A DNA stretch of 64,000 nucleotides, from positions 1,054,001-1,118,000 of the forward strand of contig NZ_CP010552.1 in assembly GCF_001293165.1 (NCBI RefSeq). Reading direction: 5' to 3'. Below the pieces are notes generated by a model. That model saw only the letters and a list, made by a program, of their open reading frames with translations. It made no database searches and was not told where the DNA came from. Shown here piece by piece: positions 22,745-22,987 of the stretch. Position numbers and translations under genes: made by a program. The stretch's first letter is position 1. The number at the start of each line of letters is the position of its first letter. Origin of the DNA: Candidatus Thioglobus autotrophicus (lineage in GTDB: Bacteria; Pseudomonadota; Gammaproteobacteria; PS1; Pseudothioglobaceae).

Positions 22745-22772
22745 CTGACAGATTCATTTTTTTAGGTATAAT
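22745..22772 (+). promoter_or_regulatory. Strong sigma-70 promoter upstream of glnK (second copy)
   Basis: CTGACA (22745-22750) and a perfect TATAAT (22767-22772) are 16 bases apart. Transcription should start near 22779, about 210 bases before the glnK start codon. Confidence 0.7.
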
Positions 22773-22778
22773 ACGCAG

Positions 22779-22867
22779 TAGTTGTTTCCCAAAGACGGGA
22801 AGTTAACATCAAACATTGACGTTTATTTAGATTCCTTAATAAGGGATTTCAATAAACGTTTTTTTTT
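22779..22867 (+). ncRNA. Candidate small RNA or leader RNA ending in an intrinsic terminator
   Basis: From the inferred start, the RNA would hold a short hairpin (TTCCC/GGGAA, 22786-22801) and then a long one. In the long hairpin ACGTTTATT (22819-22827) pairs with AATAAACGT (22851-22859), with an inner ATTCCTT/AAGGGAT helix separated by a 3x3 internal loop, and a T9 tract ends at 22867. Promoter plus terminator define a discrete transcript of about 89 bases with no obvious ORF. I recognise no known Rfam family. Confidence 0.5.
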
Positions 22868-22905
22868 GCATGCTTCATGAGGGAGTTGTGTAAAAAATGG
22901 CATGG

Positions 22906-22960
22906 AAGCCAGATATTTTTATTTGCAAATTTTGCAAATTGAAATATCTGGCTTTTTTTT
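22906..22960 (+). terminator. Second terminator-like hairpin, just upstream of glnK
   Basis: AAGCCAGATATTT (22906-22918) pairs perfectly with AAATATCTGGCTT (22942-22954) and runs into T8. The loop is itself a nested hairpin (ATTTGCAA/TTGCAAAT). It ends 27 bases before the glnK ATG. Transcripts from the promoter at 22745 must pass this and the preceding terminator to express glnK-amtB, suggesting attenuation. Confidence 0.7.
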
Positions 22961-22987
22961 GGTTCAAAGAAAAATAGGAGAAAGACA

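Follow-up and report, generated by a model that had tools for sequence, protein, structure and literature searches.

Antitermination by ANTAR proteins is an established mechanism class. The eut antiterminators of EutV consist of two short hairpins, P1 and P2, whose hexaloops carry A at position 1 and G at position 4 (A1/G4), with a short linker between them and with P2 overlapping an intrinsic terminator (PMC3369931, PMC8934654); the linker of eut ANTAR targets is 5-12 nt long (PMC3369931). The residues by which EutV contacts RNA are RKKKEYRMNRR (PMC8934654), and EutX/Rli55 is a known sponge RNA that titrates an ANTAR protein (PMC5821096). Two further systems concern nitrogen: in the NasS-NasT system a NasT-like receiver-ANTAR protein has nitrite/nitrate assimilation genes as targets (PMC3795266, PMC5424462, PMC6759348), and ANTAR elements are associated with nitrogen fixation in Pelobacter (PMC3369931). 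No description of ANTAR control in the SUP05/Thioglobus lineage was found in the open-access literature searched.

Here we analyse the leader of the glnK2-amt2 operon, located in a window of 64,000 nucleotides (the whole stretch of DNA under study). Its features suggest that it very probably acts as a serial two-step ANTAR-dependent transcription attenuator.

Organization of the glnK2-amt2 leader

The features of the leader and of the genes around it are compiled in Table 1. An earlier note on this DNA had placed here a sigma-70 promoter, a hairpin with a T9 tract ending at 22867 and a second hairpin with a T8 tract ending at 22960, and all three were recovered at these positions, as were the first unit of about 89 bases (22779-22867, exactly 89 nt) and the 27 bases that separate the second T tract from the glnK2 ATG (22988). 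The promoter upstream of glnK2, with 11 of 12 matches in its two boxes, was the best-scoring among 42 sites in a 14-kb scan. Folding of 22779-22990 gave -67.7 kcal/mol (z -6.9), a stability reached by 0 of 200 shuffles, and the z scores of the individual terminators likewise agree with the claim that the structure is not random. Conservation of the hairpins in relatives, on which the earlier note had made its proposal depend, is seen for both across the family. A simple terminator scan listed neither terminator, since it demands a short loop and an unbroken G-C-rich stem, and the stems here are long and A-T-rich. What the earlier note overlooked are small hexaloop hairpins before each terminator, and these are the key feature of the leader.

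On its 5' side the leader adjoins the gene of a protein (21784-22719) with a weak match to a Cache/PDC sensor domain. This product was set aside as a candidate sensor; the sequence 5' of the leader varies in distant relatives.

Table 1. Positions of the leader elements and neighbouring genes in the window
Feature	Position	Strand	Remarks
Single ANTAR-like pair and weak terminator-like hairpin before glnK1-amt1	15981-16043	+	loops AACGGC 15988-15993 and AGUGUU 16014-16019
Sigma-70-type promoter CTGACA-16-TATAAT	22745-22772	+	CTGACA 22745-22750, 16-nt spacer, TATAAT 22767-22772; predicted start near 22779
P1 hairpin, hexaloop AAAGAC 22791-22796	22781-22807	+	core stem 22785-22790/22797-22802; outer pairs 22781-22783/22805-22807
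P2 hairpin, hexaloop AUUGAC 22815-22820	22811-22824	+	3' arm within terminator 1
Terminator 1 with T9	22818-22867	+	T9 22859-22867; -17.5 kcal/mol, z -5.8; found in 55/58 leaders
P3 hairpin, pentaloop AUGAG	22872-22886	+	hexaloop A1/G4 in many relatives and nirB leaders
P4 hairpin, hexaloop AUGGAA 22902-22907	22898-22911	+	3' arm within terminator 2
Terminator 2 with T8	22907-22960	+	T8 22953-22960; -28.3 kcal/mol, z -7.8; found in 53/58 leaders
Ribosome-binding site AGGAG of glnK2	22976-22980	+	
glnK2 (PII protein)	22988-23332	+	P-II, E 1.3e-30
amt2 (ammonium transporter)	23343-24554	+	E 6.8e-95
Receiver-ANTAR protein (NasT-like), proposed trans factor	25172-25756	+	Asn56 replaces the phospho-acceptor Asp

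The first module

P1 (core UUUCCC-AAAGAC-GGGAAG) and P2 (AAAC-AUUGAC-GUUU) form, together with terminator 1, module A (22781-22867). We compared it with the properties that define an ANTAR-target RNA. Both hairpins have at least 3 bp, P1 with six core and three outer pairs and P2 with four; both loops are A1/G4 hexaloops; the core stems are separated by 8 nt, or by 3 nt if the outer pairs of P1 form, the loop-to-loop distance being 18 nt in the window copy; all four bases of the P2 3' arm lie inside the 5' arm of the terminator 1 stem, rendering P2 and the terminator mutually exclusive; and the genome encodes exactly one ANTAR protein (E 3.3e-19). P1 and P2 also appear in the unconstrained fold of 22779-22828. 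Scanning both strands with a strict descriptor, i.e. two A1/G4 hexaloop hairpins at set spacing with the second one overlapping a terminator, returned a single site in the 64-kb window, module A of the glnK2 leader, and one site in total from 60 dinucleotide-shuffled windows (mean expected 0.017).

These properties are shared by related leaders. P2 overlaps terminator 1 in 54 of 58, and 90.2% of module-A cells are paired among 51 sequences. In a plain alignment of 51 leaders G4 of P2 is invariant, while A1 of P2 and G4 of P1 are each present in at least 90%; one run of the loop statistics used a score favouring A1/G4, and the plain alignments made without that bias agree. In eight relatives (L100, L103, L110, L113, L114, L116, L117 and L120) the P1 loop begins with G in place of A and retains G4, which breaks the published A1 rule for ANTAR-target loops. 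Both sides of a pair have changed in 54 cells of module A compared to 21.4 in shuffles, with compensatory changes in P1, whose outer stem shows a switch from G-C to C-G, and slight ones in P2. Judged by its sequence and predicted fold, module A is an ANTAR-target RNA as defined in PMC3369931.

The second module

Terminator 2 is preceded by a second hairpin pair, P3 (GCUUC-AUGAG-GGAGU) and P4 (UGGC-AUGGAA-GCCA), visible in the unconstrained fold of 22864-22915 and forming module B (22872-22960) with the terminator. As in module A, the 3' arm of the second hairpin (GCCA) is part of the terminator stem, so that the two structures exclude each other. Of the two loops in the window copy that of P4 is an A1/G4 hexaloop and that of P3, a pentaloop, is not. 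Across the leaders P3 was called as a hexaloop 37 times and as a pentaloop 20 times: the pentaloop at glnK2 is typical of most of the window's genus, and AAAGAU or a similar hexaloop is found in nirB leaders and in many glnK2 leaders. Among 26 second modules of the hexaloop type A1 and G4 are invariant in both P3 and P4. Covariation amounts to 26 cells with both sides changed versus 10.3 in shuffles, all of them in P3, the P4 stem being invariant and covariation therefore silent on it. To fit the window P3 the covariance model R3 needs a gap of one base, the score being 14.8 bits, and window module B is absent from the matches listed in a whole-genome search with R3. In some vesicomyid clam symbionts (L023, L094, L098) the loops of the second glnK2-leader module are lost, apparently by decay of one gate in reduced genomes.

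The pentaloop of the window's genus, the low R3 score and the decay in symbionts would fit a reading in which only module A is under ANTAR control. Module B would then be a remnant that is decaying or has been put to another use, and terminator 2, by stopping a constant part of transcription, would fix the basal level. We consider this unlikely, as the window P3 retains A1 and also the G that lies three bases from the 3' end of its loop, P4 has a perfect A1/G4 hexaloop, terminator 2 and its overlap with P4 are retained in 53 of 58 leaders, and the nirB leader of the same genome carries a perfect module B. We rather regard window module B as a divergent homologue of ANTAR-target RNA, not a proven member, that probably works alike.

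The ANTAR protein and the lack of NasS

The sole ANTAR protein gene of the genome lies 2.2 kb downstream of the leader. Most relatives also have one ANTAR protein, mostly encoded near glnK2-amt2. The protein aligns with EutV (6wsh) and Rv1626 (1s8n), and the positions corresponding to the RNA contacts of EutV read RKKKEYRMDNR and are retained through the family. The receiver Asp of proteins of the phosphorylated EutV type is missing, Asn56 being present in 62 of 62 family sequences.

The locus does not qualify as a NasS-NasT system either, with zero matches to NasS (PF13379) in its own genome; searching 36 family genomes yielded two weak partial matches only. Six outgroup genomes with ANTAR proteins have a strong NasS match, which adjoins the ANTAR gene in five of them. 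At two of these outgroup loci the scanner, used in a slightly relaxed form that also detects both modules before nirB in the family, found a single ANTAR module, in one case ahead of the gene of a nitrate-type substrate-binding protein. Sigma-54 gave nothing above the cut-off in the own genome. Five equal-scoring frames with PF04552 matches below the cut-off were rejected as sigma-54, probably being transposases, and weak PF00158 matches were rejected as probable general AAA ATPases.

How the ANTAR protein is switched on becomes a question of its own once both NasS and the receiver Asp are lost. A protein with two CBS domains (24711-25154), encoded between amt2 and the ANTAR gene, is a candidate sensor partner; gene spacing suggests that it is missing from this place in some pelagic relatives.

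Conservation of the leader and further possible targets

The order P1-P2/terminator 1-P3-P4/terminator 2 is common to the glnK2 leaders of about 50 relatives, including Ca. Thioglobus, Thiodubiliella, Ruthia, Vesicomyosocius, Pseudothioglobus and Bathymodiolus symbionts, and to nirB leaders. A covariance model of module A, R1, had matches in 31 of the 36 family genomes and in none of the 21 other genomes. At E < 0.1 it found two places only in the own genome, glnK2 and L031:2776-2825, the latter preceding a nirB-nasA remnant, and eight R1 matches outside the training set precede nirB, nearly all with a double leader. A weak match inside amt2 (23461-23507, 22.6 bits) was discarded as coding sequence.

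At L031:3000-4844 (1266499-1268343 of the own genome) nirB is cut to a frame of 95 aa, in which 88 residues can be matched to the 791-aa protein found in relatives, and the frame resembling nasA has 484 aa; the double ANTAR leader ahead of the nirB remnant is intact. In L032, L034 and L035 nirB is nearly full-length, and P4 of the nirB leader seems to be lost in L204.

The glnK1-amt1 operon of the window is preceded by a single pair, AUUCUAC-AACGGC-GUAGAGU and AGC-AGUGUU-GCU (15981-16022), that differs from the glnK2 pair. A like pair is present in the glnK1 leaders of 18 relatives, and the terminator that is weak in the window is clear in L026. Given the weak terminator-like hairpin, the output of glnK1-amt1 may differ. 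R1 misses this element, and other ANTAR targets of the divergent type in the genome may go unseen. Elsewhere, a single ANTAR-like leader stands ahead of a short frame beginning MKQLVMKFIWAFFWLFFGLMVAY (G026, L038:3009-3390), a possible extra target, and a double one ahead of a SerB-like frame (G034, L209:178-480).

The earlier note had offered a small RNA gene or a two-stage attenuator. The attenuator is retained and specified as ANTAR antitermination at two terminators, whereas a small RNA gene is not needed, as the 89-nt RNA is what a stop at terminator 1 leaves over and conservation ties the leader to glnK2 or nirB. As a by-product this RNA may serve as an ANTAR decoy. A stronger version, compatible with attenuation, would give it a function as a small RNA, namely to titrate the ANTAR protein in the manner of EutX/Rli55, and the predicted 89-nt product would indeed hold a complete ANTAR-binding pair. 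We nevertheless hold this to be improbable, for at every locus seen the leader is joined to a target gene, and the R1 search found zero free-standing copies in the own genome.

Taken by themselves the terminators resemble any attenuator, and both might be run by a metabolite-sensing riboswitch or a leader peptide, with the hexaloops being incidental. This is very hard to reconcile with conservation that centres on the small hairpins, including their A1/G4 loops, and with an ANTAR gene that lies nearby and occurs in nearly every family genome. Rfam searches at the gathering threshold and at E up to 10 gave chance matches only, mostly of microRNA-type models on long hairpins, in line with the remark in the earlier note that no known riboswitch was recognised; the proposed protein-dependent element is not in Rfam. 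Phage records contained no match. Finally, that the hairpins, located between two same-strand genes, are ordinary terminators of the preceding gene unconnected to glnK2 is the least credible reading, as a promoter whose TATAAT is conserved in 51 of 58 leaders lies 5' of both, the leader remains linked to glnK2 while the sequence upstream varies among relatives, and the identical layout precedes nirB.

Proposed model of serial antitermination

The best reading, based on comparative sequence analysis, has an orphan NasT-like ANTAR protein act on two serial antiterminators to control nitrogen uptake. Transcription would start near 22779. In computed folds the terminators (-17.5 and -28.3 kcal/mol) are more stable than the antiterminator pairs (-9.0 and -14.2 kcal/mol), so that the default should be off, with terminator 1 and then terminator 2 halting RNA polymerase ahead of glnK2, and the protein should be needed to hold each antiterminator. 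Under nitrogen limitation, the presumed signal, active ANTAR protein would bind P1 and P2, holding back the 5' arm of terminator 1 and letting the polymerase pass. Once the polymerase has made P3 and P4, the ANTAR protein would bind there too and disarm terminator 2 likewise. As two serial gates multiply the leak of each one, lower leak and a steeper response are to be expected. This protein should also control the twin leader ahead of nirB(-nasA) and the single glnK1-amt1 element, which would make up a small nitrogen-assimilation regulon.

More tentatively, and with somewhat greater doubt than trust, we suggest that in the SUP05/Thioglobus lineage, represented here by a genome without sigma-54, an orphan, Asp-less NasT-like ANTAR protein has replaced NtrC as general regulator of nitrogen limitation, the serial antiterminators converting a graded signal into tight switching of ammonium uptake and of nitrite/nitrate assimilation. 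These bacteria occur in large numbers in low-oxygen seawater and as symbionts of mussels and clams, and one RNA-binding protein with three leaders makes a compact, directly testable regulon.

Comparison with known systems

The variant described here belongs to a known class of mechanism and is new in its serial arrangement and its NasS-less wiring, both being unreported in the open-access literature searched. The glnK2 leader shares with the eut antiterminators the hairpin pair, the short linker and the overlap of P2 with an intrinsic terminator, and the receiver-ANTAR protein has nearly the RNA-contact residues of EutV. Unlike in eut, two serial modules precede one gene, the targets are ammonium uptake and nitrite/nitrate assimilation, and the receiver is devoid of its Asp. 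A NasT-like protein and nitrite/nitrate assimilation targets are common to the NasS-NasT system, and the two outgroup nas-type loci have the same hairpin pair, albeit with one terminator and one module only. In contrast to that system, the own genome is without NasS, the ANTAR gene lies beside glnK-amt, the leaders are double and glnK-amt operons carry the elements.

As in the nitrogen-fixation ANTAR regulons of Geobacter and Pelobacter, one ANTAR protein would serve several nitrogen operons, but nitrogen fixation is not involved here, and the accessible part of the published account of those regulons describes no serial modules. Geobacter GnfR reportedly also acts on glnK-amtB. By analogy only, the two serial gates recall tandem riboswitches, in which such an arrangement gives a tighter or steeper response (reviewed in PMC9481103), the glnK2 leader being protein-dependent instead of ligand-dependent. 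If the model holds, tandem riboswitches would have a natural counterpart in the serial double antiterminator, one that depends on a protein.
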